64,000 bases of DNA from Acidobacteriota bacterium. Its GTDB lineage: Bacteria; Acidobacteriota; Blastocatellia; Pyrinomonadales; Pyrinomonadaceae. The notes beneath the pieces are model-generated. The model was not told the origin of the DNA, made no database searches, and worked only from the letters and a program-made list of their open reading frames with translations. Every line of letters begins with the position of its first letter. Positions within the stretch are counted from its first letter, which is position 1. The translations under genes and the position numbers were made by a program. Where the stretch lies: the NCBI GenBank assembly GCA_025463135.1, contig JAOAPY010000013.1, positions 124,001 to 188,000 of the forward strand, written 5' to 3'. Positions 26,259 to 60,176 of this stretch are shown in pieces.

Positions 26259-28907
26259 TCAAAACTTGAGATTAACACCTGCGCGGGCCGCAATGCCGGC
26301 CGCACGAAAACCATTTTCAAAGTAAGTGCGATCGAATAGGTTGTCGGCGCCGGCGAACAGTACTGCAGTGATCCGCTCGTTTACGCGGCGTTCGTACGTA
26401 GCGAATAGATCTGCTTTGGTAAAGCCTCGAAATTTCAGATCTGCCTGTCGAAAAGGAAAGTCATTCTCGAAAACAAGACTGAGGTAGGAACCCGTGCGGT
26501 TCAGATCAAAGTTAAAACTCCAGGCACGATACCTTTGACTGAGGTTGAGGCCCAACATGTGTTTGGGAATGACGTATTCCTGCAGCAAACCGCGGCCGGG
26601 AACAAAGCGATCGCTATTTGTATAGCTGTAAGACGCGCGAATGCTGGTCGCGCGAAACGGCGTCATCTCGACCGAACTCTCGAGCCCGCGCGCGATCCCA
26701 CCCCTCCGATTAACATAGCCACTGAAGCGACCAGCTCCCAGCGGATCATTCGTAAAACCGGTAAAAGCAATCGCTCTTTGCAGCCGCGTGTAAAAGTAAG
26801 TGAAGCCAAGCAGCACGCGATCCTGGGCTAGTCGCTGGTCCACACCCGCGTCGACGCTGATCGATTGTTCTGCACGCAAAGTCGGATCACCAAAGTGGAC
26901 AAAACCCACGCCGGCGAATGTTCCCGCGCCGAAGCGTTCAAACAAAGCGGGCGCACGGAAGCCATTGCCCACATGACCGCGCAGTTTGGTATTTGTTGAG
27001 CGAATGAAATACGCAATCGAACCGTCACCCGTTACTGATGATTTGGCCGTAATGCTTCCCAGCGATGCCGGTCGGTCCGCTGCCCTGATGCGATAGAACT
27101 GTCCCCGAACTCCGCCTGAAAGTTGCAGCCGTCCTTCAAGGAGAAATATCTGGTCTTGACCGAAAATCGCAAAGGTGCGCTGCCGATCAGTGGTGCCGTT
27201 GAAAGCGCTGAAGGAGGGAATCGAATTCTGAAACAGGGACTCGTGTTCGTATTCGAAACCCGCGGTCGCCAGGTTCGTCGTTCTGAAGCTGGCATTCAGG
27301 CGAGCATCCAAGGTATCTGTGGTCCCCTCGTTGAAAGCAGTGAACGCAAAATCACCAAACGGATAGAACGAAGCGAAGCGAGGCTCGATCTTTGGTCCAT
27401 TGTAGTTTCGTCGTTTCGACGAAACGTGCTGATACGCCGCCGTGTACGAGAACGTATCGTTTATTCTTTGCGAGAACCTCACTGAACCTGCCAACACTCG
27501 ATTGCGACGACCCTCATCAGGATTATTGATGTCCGGATGAAACGTGACACCGGCAATCGCGTCCCGGAACTGCTGCCCACTGGCAAAGGCGGCCGGCAAG
27601 GTAAACGGACTGTCATTGAGGCGCGCGTTAGAAATCGTTGCGTACAAATTGCCCGCGACCATAATTGAAGGTGTGGCGTTGAATTGGAACCGACCACTAG
27701 CCGCAGTGTTGCCGTACTCGTCGTTGCCATCTACACCGCGACGCACATCAATACGATTCAGGCCAAACGTGAAACCGGCTCGCTTGCCGAGTCCGCCCGA
27801 GCCAACTGCATGCTCGCGATAGGTTGCCAGGCTGCCGCCTTCCCAACCGACTTCAAATCGCGGCCGGCCACTGGCCGTTGCCGGCACCATATTAATTACG
27901 CCGCCGATGGCGTTGGTGCCATAGATAGACGAACCTGAGCCTCTCAGCACTTCTACGCGATCCAGGCCAAGGGGCACAAGATCGGCCATCAAGACGAAAG
28001 CGGAGCCGTTCGGATCTGACGCATCTCGCAAACGCAACCCGTCCAAAAGAATTGCGGTGTCATAGTTGCGCTGGCCGCGAAGGCGCAACGACGTCAGCTC
28101 GCCGAGCGAGCCCTGTTGCTGAACACGCAAGCCGGGAATTCCCCGCAACGCCTCAGGCAGAGTCAGTTCATGCCGAGCTTCGATTTGTTGGCTGTCGATC
28201 AGCGACACTGCTTTCGAGATTTCGTCGGCGCGCTGGGGAGTGCCGGCGGCCGTTACCACCACGCTTTCATTGATGCCGGCGATCTTGAGATTTAGTTCAA
28301 GCTTCTCAGCCTGCCCCGGCGACAAATGTATTTCATTGGTTAGGGTGGCAAAGCCCGAGCCTTTCACTTCGATTAGATAAATCCCCGCGCCGAGCTTATC
28401 CAGGTGAAATAGTCCGTTCGCATCTGTCCTCGTGGACTGCTGCAAACCCTCGCGCGACCGCAGACGCACGTCCGCGCCGGAGATGTTTGCGCCTTGTTCA
28501 TCTCTGATGTGTCCGGAGATCGAGCCCTGAGTTTGCGCCAGGCTTGGAATCACGCAAAAAGCAAGGCACAGGACCATCGCCCAGATGATGCGGTGCCCTT
28601 TTAGGACTCCGAGTTTGGTAGATAGTCTTGCGCCACGTGGGCGCAAATAATTTCCCGGGCGACTCCGTTTCTCAACGGCTCTGCCGCCGCACAGTGCGAC
28701 AAGGCTCCTCCTTACCGGAGGATTCTCCTCAAAATCCTGCGAAGCTGCGCCTCGCCCAACCGAGGCATAGCCTCGACTATTATTTAAGTTGGCACAACGT
28801 TGAGGCAGAGCCTCACTGCACTGTGCGGCGGCAAAGCCGCAAGCGCTAAATTCATTTATCCTGTTTTCTCTTCGGCATGAACGATCAGTTTCGTGTTCTC
28901 TTTTCAT
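26259..28907 (-). CDS. btuB: TonB-dependent outer-membrane receptor, probably for cobalamin (BtuB-like)
   Basis: 882 residues from the ATG at 28907, which has AGGAG seven bases upstream. Residues about 105-125 form a late signal peptide (MVLCLAFCVIPSLAQ). Then a carboxypeptidase-regulatory-like domain (SISGHIRDEQGANISGADV, about 125-200), the plug (LPEALRGIPGLRVQQQG, LLDGLRLRD, GLDRVEVLRGSGSSIYGTNAIGGVINM) and a 22-strand barrel ending in an aromatic-poor LKF. B12 as substrate is inferred from the cobalamin riboswitch directly upstream and the btuFCD genes. The first about 100 residues are odd: part is encoded by a large palindromic element (28676-28839). Confidence 0.85.
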   Translation of the reverse strand: MKREHETDRSCRRENRINEFSACGFAAAQCSEALPQRCANLNNSRGYASVGRGAASQDFEENPPVRRSLVALCGGRAVEKRSRPGNYLRPRGARLSTKLGVLKGHRIIWAMVLCLAFCVIPSLAQTQGSISGHIRDEQGANISGADVRLRSREGLQQSTRTDANGLFHLDKLGAGIYLIEVKGSGFATLTNEIHLSPGQAEKLELNLKIAGINESVVVTAAGTPQRADEISKAVSLIDSQQIEARHELTLPEALRGIPGLRVQQQGSLGELTSLRLRGQRNYDTAILLDGLRLRDASDPNGSAFVLMADLVPLGLDRVEVLRGSGSSIYGTNAIGGVINMVPATASGRPRFEVGWEGGSLATYREHAVGSGGLGKRAGFTFGLNRIDVRRGVDGNDEYGNTAASGRFQFNATPSIMVAGNLYATISNARLNDSPFTLPAAFASGQQFRDAIAGVTFHPDINNPDEGRRNRVLAGSVRFSQRINDTFSYTAAYQHVSSKRRNYNGPKIEPRFASFYPFGDFAFTAFNEGTTDTLDARLNASFRTTNLATAGFEYEHESLFQNSIPSFSAFNGTTDRQRTFAIFGQDQIFLLEGRLQLSGGVRGQFYRIRAADRPASLGSITAKSSVTGDGSIAYFIRSTNTKLRGHVGNGFRAPALFERFGAGTFAGVGFVHFGDPTLRAEQSISVDAGVDQRLAQDRVLLGFTYFYTRLQRAIAFTGFTNDPLGAGRFSGYVNRRGGIARGLESSVEMTPFRATSIRASYSYTNSDRFVPGRGLLQEYVIPKHMLGLNLSQRYRAWSFNFDLNRTGSYLSLVFENDFPFRQADLKFRGFTKADLFATYERRVNERITAVLFAGADNLFDRTYFENGFRAAGIAARAGVNLKF
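28676..28839. repeat. Large palindromic element inside the 5' end of the TonB receptor gene
   Basis: Outer arms CGGCTCTGCCGCCGCACAGT and ACTGTGCGGCGGCAAAGCCG; inner hairpins include CTCCTTACCGGAGGATTC, GAGGCATAGCCTC and GAGGCAGAGCCTC. It lies between the well-placed start codon (28907) and the signal peptide, and the frame stays open across it. Exact ends are uncertain. Confidence 0.75.
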
Positions 28908-28947
28908 AGTAGCCTCTCCTGCCCGTCGCAGTGCGAGCTGAAAAGAG

Positions 28948-29175
28948 CGGTGTACAGGTTTCCTGACTCGCGATTGTGATTCAAGTAGCACCGACTTCAG
29001 TCTGCGGAGATCCTAGACTGAAGTCTGAGCTACCGAATCGCCTCGGCCCCCGCCTTCCCGGACGAATCCAGTGGCTAAGACGTTGGGAGCGTTGTCACCG
29101 CTTACAGTTGCGCGGGCAGTGGCGGTATTGAACCGCCTTCCCTTGCACTCCACTCGTTGGTTCAAAGATCACCGG
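28948..29175 (-). promoter_or_regulatory. Cobalamin riboswitch upstream of the TonB receptor
   Basis: Minus-strand reading: P1 half CGGTG, then GGGAAGGCGGTTCAATACCG, GCCACTG-like GCCCGCGCAACTGTAAGC, GCCACTGG, CGGGAAGGCG, the B12 box GAGTCAGGAAACCTG and the closing CACCG. These are the conserved elements of the AdoCbl/Cbl riboswitch in order. It overlaps the last bases of btuD. A ribosome site (GCAGGAGAGG) lies just downstream, so translation control is likely. A palindromic repeat (28985-29033) sits in the arm between CGGGAAGGCG and the B12 box. Confidence 0.9.
28985..29033. repeat. GACTTCAGTC-family palindrome inside the riboswitch
   Basis: GTAGCACCGACTTCAGTCTG, ten bases, AGACTGAAGTCTGAGCTAC. 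The same unit lies at 29971-30021 between btuD and btuC, within 55970-56080, and in related form at 60108-60176. As it is a self-contained hairpin it would extend the riboswitch arm without disturbing the core. Confidence 0.8.
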
Positions 29176-29957
29176 CGCAATTCATGCACCGGCGTTATGC
29201 GTGGCACACCCGTTACCGGATGCGCATCCACCAGGACCTTTACCTCGAAGACCTCCCCGACTAATTTCTCTGTCAGCACTTCCCGCGGTGCACCGAGCGC
29301 AACCGGCTCGCCCCCTTTCAAGAGCAACAGTCGATCGGCAAACTCAGCCGCGAGATTTATATCGTGCGTTACGACCGCAGCACTCGCGCCACGGCGGTCG
29401 CAGCGATCACGCACCAGAGCGAGAATCGCCGCCTGATGACCTAAGTCCAGATTCGCGGTCGGCTCGTCCAACAAGAGAATCGTTGCTTCAGTGGCCAGCG
29501 CCCGCGCCAGGACAGCTCGCTGTCTTTCACCGCCCGAAAGCTCGTTCATAAGCCGCCCGCTGAAGGCTTCCAGCTCAGTCTCGTGCAAGACGGCGAACGC
29601 CACTTCAAGATCGCGCTCAGTTTCCCAACCCCAGGCTCCGGTGCTGGCCCACGCATAGCGCGCGCCCAGAACGAATTCGAGTACCGTCACCGGGAAGCGC
29701 AGATCAGCTTCCTGGGCCACCGCCGCGATGCGCCGGCTAACGGCCCGTCGTGGGAACGTTCGCAATGGAAGTTCATCAAGCACGATCTCTCCCTTTGACG
29801 GCTTCAGAGCACCATTGAAGGCCCTTAACAGTGAGGACTTTCCTGCTCCGTTAGGTCCAAGGATCGCCGTGACCTCTCCCGCATTGAGTTTAAGAGACAC
29901 GCCCGTGATCGCCTGACGGGCACCATAACTGATGGTGATGTTTCGAGCTTCGAGCAT
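29169..29957 (-). CDS. btuD: Cobalamin ABC transporter ATPase
   Basis: 262 residues. Walker A GPNGAGKSS (about 34-42), signature LSGGERQR, Walker B ILLLDEPTANLD and the switch His in VVTHD are intact. Typical FecE/BtuD ATPase, powering BtuC. The sequence alone fits heme or siderophore import as well; the two cobalamin riboswitches decide for B12. Separated from btuC by a repeat of about 50 bp; the 3' end overlaps the second riboswitch by a few bases. Confidence 0.88.
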   Translation of the reverse strand: MLEARNITISYGARQAITGVSLKLNAGEVTAILGPNGAGKSSLLRAFNGALKPSKGEIVLDELPLRTFPRRAVSRRIAAVAQEADLRFPVTVLEFVLGARYAWASTGAWGWETERDLEVAFAVLHETELEAFSGRLMNELSGGERQRAVLARALATEATILLLDEPTANLDLGHQAAILALVRDRCDRRGASAAVVTHDINLAAEFADRLLLLKGGEPVALGAPREVLTEKLVGEVFEVKVLVDAHPVTGVPRITPVHELRR

Positions 29958-29970
29958 TATTTGTATAACA

Positions 29971-30021
29971 ACTTCAGTCTGTTATTTTCGCCACCAACAC
30001 ACAGACTGAAGTCTGTGCTAC
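29971..30021. repeat. GACTTCAGTC-family palindrome between btuC and btuD
   Basis: ACTTCAGTCTG and CAGACTGAAGTCTGTGCTAC around about 20 bp. It begins right after the btuC stop codon and fills the gap in the operon. Confidence 0.75.
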
Positions 30022-32074: not shown

Positions 32075-32149
32075 CTCTCGAAATGTAGATATGAGACCCG
32101 CACGCCTGAACACCTTTGCGCGAGGGGTTCATAAATAAAGCTGCAAAAG

Positions 32150-32290
32150 CGTCAAGGGCAGGTCTCCTGACTTAGAGCTTTAAAGATCTTCAGCTCATCA
32201 CAGTGGCGCGACCGCGCAGGATTCTCACCTGCTTCCCTATTCTCCCCGCAAGCCGCGGGGCACCCTGACACTTCAGATTAAAAAGAACAA
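32150..32290 (-). promoter_or_regulatory. Cobalamin riboswitch upstream of btuF
   Basis: Minus strand in order: GTGCCCCGCGGCTTGCGGGG, GGGAAGCAGGTGAGAATCC, TGCGCGGTCGCGCCACTGTG, then the B12 box AAGTCAGGAGACCTGCC. These are the canonical core elements of the cobalamin riboswitch; it lacks the long variable arm of the second copy. Terminator and btuF follow. Confidence 0.93.
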
Positions 32291-55033: not shown

Positions 55034-56002
55034 ATGGAACCCTACGCGGCTTTCTTGAACAAAGCAGGTCGACTGCGCAGCGGTTGGCGCCTTGGACTCT
55101 ATGCGCTCGCCTTCGCGGCTTCGATGTTTCTTTTCGGATCGCTGGTGCGCGTGGCCTTTGTTATTAGTGAACGTCTGCACCTGACCATTGGCAGTTTTCT
55201 CGAAAACATTGTCTATCGCCTGGTCCTGCTTGCTGCGGCGCTGCTCGCGGGTTGGGTCTGCAATCGTTGGCTGGAAGGGTTGCCCTGGCGAGCGCTCGGT
55301 CTTGCTTTCCATGCAGGATGGATCAGAGATCTGTTGATTGGCTCAATTATCGGCGCTACGTCCCTGGCAATCGCAGCGCTCGCTGCATTCGCCGGCGGGG
55401 GTTTGCGATTCTCGCTCTCGGGCCGAGAATTTCTTCAGTCCACACTTCAGACGCTGGCTATCACGGCGGCTTTGTTTATCGTGGCAGCACTGGCTGAGGA
55501 AGCAGTTTTCAGGGGGTACCCGCTACAAACCTTAACGCGGGCCGGCCTGGCCTGGCTTGGCGTGCTGCTCACTTCCATCCCTTTTGCGCTGGGGCATTTA
55601 CAAAACCCAAACGTGGTGGCGGGCTTCACGTTTATTAATACGGCGCTCGCGGGAGTATGGCTGGCCGCGGCTTATTTGAAGACTCGGAGTCTCTGGTTTC
55701 CGCTGGGTGTTCATTGGGCCTGGAACTGGGCCTTGGGGTCTCTCTTTGGTTTGCCCGTCAGCGGAATGAAACTATCGGCCTATCCGGTATTACAAGCCGC
55801 GGACCGAGGGCCGGCGTGGCTGACTGGTGGAAGCTATGGCATCGAAGGCGGATTGGCCTGCACCATCGCGTTGGTTATCTCCACACTTTTTATTTGGCGC
55901 AGCGGTGTGGTGACGGCAACTCCGGAATTGATGAAGCTTACCTCTGAAGAGAACCCGGTGCAGCGTGTGCCCGACAAACTTCAATTTGTCGATTTGCAGT
56001 AG
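55034..56002 (+). CDS. CPBP-family intramembrane protease (CAAX-like)
   Basis: 322 residues, about eight TM helices. Catalytic motifs: EEAVFRG (E155-E156), H188 in LGHLQNP and the later His in LGVHWAWNW (about 226). Such glutamic proteases cleave or process membrane proteins, or serve bacteriocin immunity. The C-terminal VPDKLQFVDLQ is encoded by a palindromic repeat (55970-56080), so the natural C-terminus has been replaced. Confidence 0.9.
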   Translation: MEPYAAFLNKAGRLRSGWRLGLYALAFAASMFLFGSLVRVAFVISERLHLTIGSFLENIVYRLVLLAAALLAGWVCNRWLEGLPWRALGLAFHAGWIRDLLIGSIIGATSLAIAALAAFAGGGLRFSLSGREFLQSTLQTLAITAALFIVAALAEEAVFRGYPLQTLTRAGLAWLGVLLTSIPFALGHLQNPNVVAGFTFINTALAGVWLAAAYLKTRSLWFPLGVHWAWNWALGSLFGLPVSGMKLSAYPVLQAADRGPAWLTGGSYGIEGGLACTIALVISTLFIWRSGVVTATPELMKLTSEENPVQRVPDKLQFVDLQ

Positions 56003-56080
56003 CACAGACTCTGATCGATTCCCTGGAATCACAGACTGAAGTCTGTCTTACGGTGGCGACAAACTGAAGTTTGTCGGACA
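55970..56080. repeat. GACAAACTTCAGTTTGTC-family palindrome, copy 3, with nested GACTTCAGTC unit
   Basis: Outer CCGACAAACTTCAATTTGTC / CGACAAACTGAAGTTTGTCGG; inside lies AGCACAGACTCTGATC ... CACAGACTGAAGTCTG, a member of the second family. The CPBP gene ends within the left arm. Confidence 0.78.
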
Positions 56081-60107: not shown

Positions 60108-60176
60108 GTTCAGAGTACCGACTTCAGTAAGCTTTATTCGATCGCAAAAAACCCGACTGAAGTCGGTATTCTGAAC
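60108..60176. repeat. GTTCAGAGTACCGACTTCAG palindrome after the VWFA gene
   Basis: GTTCAGAGTACCGACTTCAG ... CTGAAGTCGGTATTCTGAAC, nearly perfect 20-base arms. A diverged copy lies at 54859-54928. Confidence 0.75.

Follow-up and report, generated by a model that had tools for sequence, protein, structure and literature searches.

A GTAG REP pair at a hairpin tip of a cobalamin riboswitch from an acidobacterial genome, with palindromic repeats in related accessory arms

An inverted, BIME-like pair of GTAG-type REPs, 49 bp long, lies inside a cobalamin riboswitch at positions 28985-29033 of the window (the whole 64,000-nt stretch of acidobacterial DNA that was analysed). Relatives carry the same hairpin without the pair, one relative carries a REP pair at the same hairpin tip, and unrelated palindromic repeats are found in the corresponding arm of other riboswitches of the family. 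Taken as a whole, we consider it quite probable that a REP pair was inserted at the tip of the P6 hairpin, that it is a tolerated passenger, and that the region has been filled repeatedly across lineages.

In the mechanism that we propose, the pair would be a miniature element, moved by a RAYT and inserted in the apical loop of a P6 accessory hairpin that already existed. Because its two REPs are mutually complementary, the RNA would simply lengthen the host hairpin, and since the insert would only extend that hairpin, the aptamer core, the L5 loop, the B12 box and the ribosome-binding-site hairpin would be left unchanged. In other lineages palindromic repeats, some of the same kind and some unrelated, appear to have filled this outer region, perhaps repeatedly because it is among the few harmless places for a self-pairing insert in a structured mRNA leader.

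The host riboswitch and its REP pair

The source genome comprises 6.48 Mb in 56 contigs, and its closest BtuD relatives belong to Pyrinomonadaceae, Blastocatellia and Acidobacteria MAGs. The riboswitch (28935-29188, minus strand) is of the btuB type and matches RF00174 across the entire model (positions 1-189) with 77.5 bits and an E-value of 2.3e-17, exceeding the curated cut-off of 31.5 bits. The Infernal alignment bears out the first-pass annotation, which held that all core blocks are kept; the B12 box AGUCAGGAAACCU is intact (28956-28968, minus strand), and the sole large insertion contains the REP pair, flanked by the CGGGAAGGCGGGGGC arm and on the 3' side by CGCGAGUCAGGA. From this match we predict that the leader responds to adenosylcobalamin or another corrinoid. 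Its first 20 nt are shared with the end of a btuD-like ABC ATPase gene (29169-29957, minus strand; ORF and domain match). Downstream lies a btuB-like TonB-dependent receptor gene with a Plug domain (26259-28907, minus strand), the start of which was placed at the ATG at 28907 from its ribosome-binding site, and upstream lie genes for the ABC ATPase, a FecCD permease and a periplasmic binding protein. A second, compact cobalamin riboswitch without REP (32139-32282, minus strand; 86.0 bits) precedes the btuF-like gene for the periplasmic binding protein; the earlier annotation had overlooked it. These transport protein families also serve iron-siderophore uptake, and the cobalamin specificity of the locus rests on the riboswitches.

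A candidate P13/L13 hairpin, CUGCGACGGGCAGGAG, overlaps the likely ribosome-binding site (28916-28931, minus strand) and is identical in all six of the aligned riboswitch leaders. Since an L5-L13 kissing loop is described in the account of PMC9600662, its position suggests translational control through L13. The receptor ORF shows a long gap between the ATG that follows the riboswitch and a signal-peptide-like segment, and translation may begin further downstream, in which case the leader would be long. Further palindromes (GAGGCATAGCCTC, GAGGCAGAGCCTC and GCGGCAAAGCCGC) occur at 28762-28840, in the leader or gene start of the receptor, and a somewhat similar palindrome, GGAAAGGCTCTGCCTTTCC, flanks the RAYT gene on contig C1 of the same genome. 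As a repeat family these GAGGC-type palindromes were not established: 273 kb gave six strand-wise matches, four of which are two leader palindromes counted on both strands, against two in the control.

The complete palindrome previously noted in the arm at 28985-29033 proved to be the inverted REP pair. Arm 1, GTAGCACCGACTTCAGTCTG, runs on the plus strand (28985-29004) and arm 2, GTAGCTCAGACTTCAGTCTA, on the minus strand (29014-29033); as an inverted repeat (28985-29003 and 29015-29033) they form 19-nt arms, complementary at 17 of 19 positions (89%) and spaced by 11 nt. The pair occupies the apical loop of the hairpin GGCGATTC...TGAATCAC in the P6 accessory region. The 5' strand of this hairpin, GGCGAUUC (29035-29042, minus strand), is also found at loci L080, L091, L083 and L079; its 3' strand is UGAAUCAC (28976-28983, minus strand).

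Copies of the unit recur in the window. Exact matches to GTAGCNNNGACTTCAGTC lie at 28985-29002 (plus strand), 29016-29033 (minus) and 30004-30021 (minus), and GACTTCAGTC with at most one mismatch gave 12 matches where 3.7 were expected, a number reached in none of 100 shuffles. The earlier annotation had placed a copy between the transporter genes, at 29971-30021; a repeat is there, in the permease-ATPase interval, and reading of the elements makes it a partly decayed pair with the better limits 29962-30021. At 55970-56080 its GTAG unit is likewise present as a pair, nested (55970-56079) within an inverted pair that belongs to a second REP type, CGACAAACTTCAGTTTGTCG. Such Russian-doll nesting of GTAG pairs within inverted CGACAAACTTCAGTTTGTCG-type pairs was also seen at loci L019, L029 and L030. 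A pair of a third subtype (CAGAGTACCGACTTCAGT...), likewise absent from the earlier annotation, lies at about 60110-60174, and the same subtype flanks a RAYT gene elsewhere in the genome.

Genome-wide, the 20-mer GTAGCNNNGACTTCAGTCTG with at most two mismatches has 114 matches (reversed control, 4). Copies were sampled in 70 loci of this genome, mostly of 3 kb, two of which overlap others, and which hold a subset of the REP copies. The common form among 73 elements is GTAGCACAGACTTCAGTCTGTG, an imperfect palindrome made of GTAG plus CACAGACTTCAGTCTGTG with the GTAG outermost; 50 of the 73 have an inverted partner within 130 nt at up to six mismatches, some of them by chance, and a stricter rule (up to three mismatches, within 100 nt) leaves 31 pairs. 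The elements are imperfect palindromes of 20-40 bp with a GTAG end, interspersed at high copy number and paired in opposite orientation, and their anatomy is that of REPs and BIMEs. A stricter REP pattern is present in 13 of 79 genomes, the window's included, with a control of zero in all: 102 matches in G009, 78 in the window's genome, 76 in G002, 69 in G029, 47 in G056, 37 in G033 and one to eight in seven others. In 60 scanned loci out of the 70 (L241-L248 and the overlapping L012 and L022 set aside), the REP lay within no other Rfam RNA.

Three genes of the window's genome match the RAYT model NF047646 (cut-off 80 bits). The one on contig C32, at about 76 bits (75.5-76), is below the cut-off and is flanked by a sister subtype, GAGTACCGACTTCAGTCGGG, with the inverted 23-mer TTAGAGTACCGACTTCAGTCGGG, the subtype also seen at 60110-60174; the remaining two have other inverted repeats on their flanks. 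In G029 a RAYT gene (L278; 61.3 bits, again below the cut-off of 80, with one in-frame stop) carries GAGTAGCATAGACTTTAGTCTGTG, two letters from the common REP unit, on both flanks. From these associations mobilisation by a RAYT is likely, and for the window's own genome and REP subtype it is presumed. An IS200/IS605 transposase distinct from the RAYTs was also observed there (L033, G000:C29; NF033573, 79.5 bits).

Palindromic repeats in other accessory arms

To the 86 of 111 RF00174 matches that we used, namely all 70 of the window's family (two of them its own) and 16 of 41 at the class level picked partly for length, scanning of 28 of the 80 BtuD-relative loci added 18 riboswitches, for a total of 104. 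The L080 riboswitch was included because its REP had already been seen, and at least one entry is a duplicate (L086 of L193). Nine, all from the family set, were without landmarks and were dropped; of the 95 parsed, 52 have the full accessory domain and 43 are compact. Among those 52, the stretch in which the REP pair is housed ranges from 14 to 146 nt (median 38), and palindromes from families unrelated to the GTAG REP make up many of the long arms. GGATTTTAGATTTTGG arrays are found in the arms of G005, G031, G045, G019, G039 and L092 (in G005 and G031 in both riboswitches of the genome), the AAAGGTAAAAGGCAAAAG type in G015, G012 and G036, and GGATGAGGGATGAAGG-like palindromes in G012, L075 and G047. 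Others are GGACTGAGGACTGAG (G054), a TTTCAAATTTGAG-like palindrome (G068), and ATTTATC and AATTACG arrays (G023, G024 and G037).

Genome-wide counts cover the first three types, with overlaps in tandem arrays counted more than once. The GGATTTTAGATTTTGG type has 149 matches in G005, 43 in G031, 35 in G045, 15 in G039, 8 in G019 and none in G000 or G009; the AAAGGTAAAAGGCAAAAG type 435 in G015, 153 in G012, 11 in G006, 5 in G036 and 2 each in G000 and G009; the GGATGAGGGATGAAGG type 138 in G012, 16 in G000, 14 in G047, 6 in G006, 4 in G003 and 1 in G009. Reversed controls gave 0 or 1, except for 4 in G009 with the AAAGGTAAAAGGCAAAAG type. The arms of other cobalamin riboswitches of the family also hold unrelated palindromic repeats, which supports recurrence and extends the first reading. 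Separately, L077 and L152 (G006) have more than 80 extra palindromic nucleotides in the L5 loop, for which a kissing contact with L13 is expected, and still score 53.3 to 57.8 bits.

Density was compared in the family set, which is less biased than the wider one; 61 of its 70 riboswitches could be parsed, and 59 had arms of at least 20 nt. Accessory arms contain 12 inverted repeats of at least 16 nt in 5.1 kb, where the intergenic density (81 in 89 kb) predicts 4.6 (Poisson 0.003), an excess of about 2.6-fold that supports recurrence and is not proof of a hot spot, because several hosts are congeneric (G005, G031 and G045; G019 and G039), the extent of intergenic DNA is an ORF-based estimate, and an accessory arm is a hairpin in any case. 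In the wider set the arms held 16 repeats over 7.2 kb, versus 99 in 112 kb of intergenic DNA, 38 in 757 kb of coding DNA and 10 in the other riboswitch sequence with its margins (14.6 kb), densities inflated by sample choice (class-level members picked partly for length, and L080). Furthermore, for 11 of the 59 family-set arms a match of at least 40 bits exists in DNA that is not part of a riboswitch, and for none of the 59 reversed arms. This reversed-arm control took the place of a test for matches in an arm's own context, in which 1 of 91 arm repeats was best matched in its own surroundings of about 16 kb, a figure confounded by repeat families common to relatives. Sharing of 11-mers between riboswitch and surroundings was no more than suggestive.

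Might hairpin tips attract insertion, through target choice on single-stranded DNA, beyond merely tolerating it? The 2.6-fold density would fit, as would the GTAG pairs nested in pairs of another REP type (L019, L029 and 55970-56079 of the window) and the complementarity of the flanks of the 31 strict pairs, which averages 3.97 versus 3.28 after shuffling (sd 0.26; a level reached in 1 of 200 shuffles). Much of the flank signal comes from a few nested cases, however, and density cannot separate target choice from survival, as the arms are naturally hairpins and insertions elsewhere would be purged by selection. We give attraction about one chance in a few, as the strongest of the competing readings and still an unlikely one.

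Whether mobile palindromes have built and rebuilt the P6 accessory domain of cobalamin riboswitches in Blastocatellia, several unrelated families being captured in turn and the accessory helix of several compact versions itself being a repeated palindrome, we regard as an evenly balanced question; if so, mobile DNA would be a main source of riboswitch peripheral architecture in this class.

We also asked what the insert might do. Imposing the aptamer costs 31.7 kcal/mol with the REP pair, 33.6 with the pair cut out and 34.1 (sd 3.4) with shuffled inserts, the penalty being as low for 23 of the 100 shuffles, and better tolerance of the REP than of random sequence was not seen in this comparison. 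The host stem has a predicted probability of 0.97-0.99 with the REP and 0.03 with the REP cut out, where the loop left behind differs from any true ancestral one; free folding did not recover the aptamer, and P7 and P13 formed neither with nor without the insert. Thermodynamic modelling of this kind is neither for nor against tolerance of the REP.

A functional insert might tune the switch, stabilise or terminate the btu transcript, or insulate btuD from btuB. That would suit a stable leader hairpin between neighbouring genes of an operon-like array, as would the further REP in the btuC-btuD interval and the long hairpins that many relatives have in this region. On the other hand, the arms at this site range from 14 to 146 nt and have no common sequence, suggesting that neither length nor sequence is constrained, and we consider a function improbable. 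Most likely the insertion is tolerated as a passenger and hardly affects control by cobalamin, its neutrality being our reading of the sequences. The earlier proposal that a self-complementary element can enter a peripheral helix of a structured RNA and leave the core intact is likewise supported at the sequence level.

Filled and empty hairpins in relatives

At locus L091 (genome G029) the same hairpin lacks the REP and reads GGCGAATC-GAGA-GGATTCAC, with one compensatory change from the window (third pair A-U for U-A), in a genome that holds 69 REP arms. L083 (G015) is likewise REP-free, with GGCGATTC-ATTTGGT-TGAATCA. These two empty sites and the genome-wide interspersion of the REP agree with the first reading of the element as a repeat found elsewhere and not an ancient part of the riboswitch. 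L079 (G033) has a different, degenerate loop at this hairpin, with a hairpin that contains TTTCAG, and the riboswitch alignment of L070-L072 and L074 shows no host hairpin. At L080 a REP pair occupies the same tip, with a middle unrelated to the window's. Among the REP-rich genomes, the window's and that of L080 are filled, and no equivalent insert was found in G029 (empty), G033 (other loop) or G009 (L074, without the hairpin); G002 has a single RF00174 match, a compact riboswitch. A possible missed riboswitch in G002 (L149, near 14913) was not riboswitch-like on inspection, and RF00174 has just the one match in that genome. Within the genus, a search for related genomes yielded the window's own and no other. 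An Acido-Lenti-1 RNA (RF01687) was also noted at L080 (1977-2024), L086 (2099-2146) and L091 (2505-2552), in each case on the opposite strand and about 155-165 nt beyond the first cobalamin riboswitch.

The pairs in the window and at L080 could descend from one ancestral insertion that was lost or eroded in all other relatives. They share a REP superfamily and a hairpin tip, and the degenerate TTTCAG-containing loop of L079 could be a remnant. Yet their middles differ, the near relative L091 is empty, and the L080 arms match the subtype of their host genome: the variable triplet is ATA or GTA in all 14 exact arms there (the riboswitch's own two included), versus none of 44 in the loci of the window's genome, where 30 of 44 have ACA. 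Since the window's riboswitch arms (ACC and TCA) are themselves rare at home (2 and 1 of 44 exact arms) and the L080 genome, too, has ACA in 3 of its 23 one-mismatch arms, the subtype argument holds for L080 alone.

A BtuD tree of 26 rows, using 25 of the 80 BtuD-relative loci, groups the window with L070, L073, L075, L079, L085 and others (82/95) and L080 with L091, L082 and L086-L088 (85/96), both with moderate support. Mapping the REP onto it takes two changes, and a single change is enough in 0% of 200 bootstrap trees; if just the strongly supported branches are considered, only one change is required, as the ancestral reading would allow. At least eight rows (L081, L082, L084 and L086-L090) have no second riboswitch in the DNA examined, that is, no site rather than an empty one, and are therefore uninformative on loss of the REP. 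We judge a single ancestral insertion to be slightly less probable still than a function for the insert, and conclude that the two pairs are best read as two independent insertions. Finally, an ordinary riboswitch helix that resembles a REP by chance would also be a hairpin in a riboswitch, but is practically discounted by two 20-nt arms that fit a GTAG-ended family of 114 copies and by the absence of the repeat from relatives.

Altogether, cobalamin riboswitches look like sites where mobile DNA can safely remodel RNA. They offer natural pairs with and without an insert, across several repeat families and lineages, for probing the tolerance of a riboswitch periphery, and they point to a concrete source of length variation in the P6 accessory region that ties REP/RAYT biology to the evolution of structured RNAs.

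Relation to known systems

STRR heptanucleotide repeats were reportedly found by Vioque in 1997 in cyanobacterial RNase P RNA, and they also occur in the P6b loop of the tRNA-Leu intron. As short genomic repeats that form a peripheral helix of a structured RNA, they are very like the GGATTTTAGATTTTGG arms of the compact riboswitches; unlike the window's REP, they sit in ribozymes and are simple tandem repeats without a GTAG REP.

The window's family resembles the GTAG REP/RAYT systems, in which short GTAG-tagged palindromes in inverted pairs flank a RAYT gene (PMC3733652). As far as the parts of that 2013 survey available to us go, the groups that it lists for GTAG repeats are Proteobacteria, Cyanobacteria, Chloroflexi and PVC, and its one mention of Acidobacteria concerns TIR-flanked transposases, unlike the Acidobacteriota GTAG REPs described here. 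The account of the P6 accessory region in PMC9600662, in the portion consulted, makes no mention of mobile repeats as a source of variation.

Two further cases place mobile repeats near or within structured RNAs. In the pneumococcal trp operon two T-box riboswitches are separated by a BOX element, which is cotranscribed and with which regulation is apparently kept (PMC3049150); like the REP it is a mobile repeat in a riboswitch leader and, unlike the REP, it lies, according to the excerpt consulted, between riboswitches and outside any aptamer. The other case is that of the Rickettsia palindromic elements found in the genes for tmRNA and for RNase P (M1) RNA (Ogata et al. 2002, via PMC2229807), which like the window's REP are mobile palindromes in a structured RNA gene, and perhaps neutral. 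They differ in repeat family, in host phylum and in that no metabolite-sensing mRNA leader is involved, and in the portion of PMC2229807 available their account has no single region filled repeatedly by several repeat families, unlike the cobalamin arms. In the accessible parts of the open-licence literature on riboswitches together with REPs, miniature inverted repeats or the cobalamin periphery (including PMC10969869 and PMC3049150), we found no mobile palindrome within a riboswitch interior. Within the literature searched, then, a REP in the interior of a riboswitch is new, and it joins the mobile palindromes already known from tmRNA and RNase P RNA.
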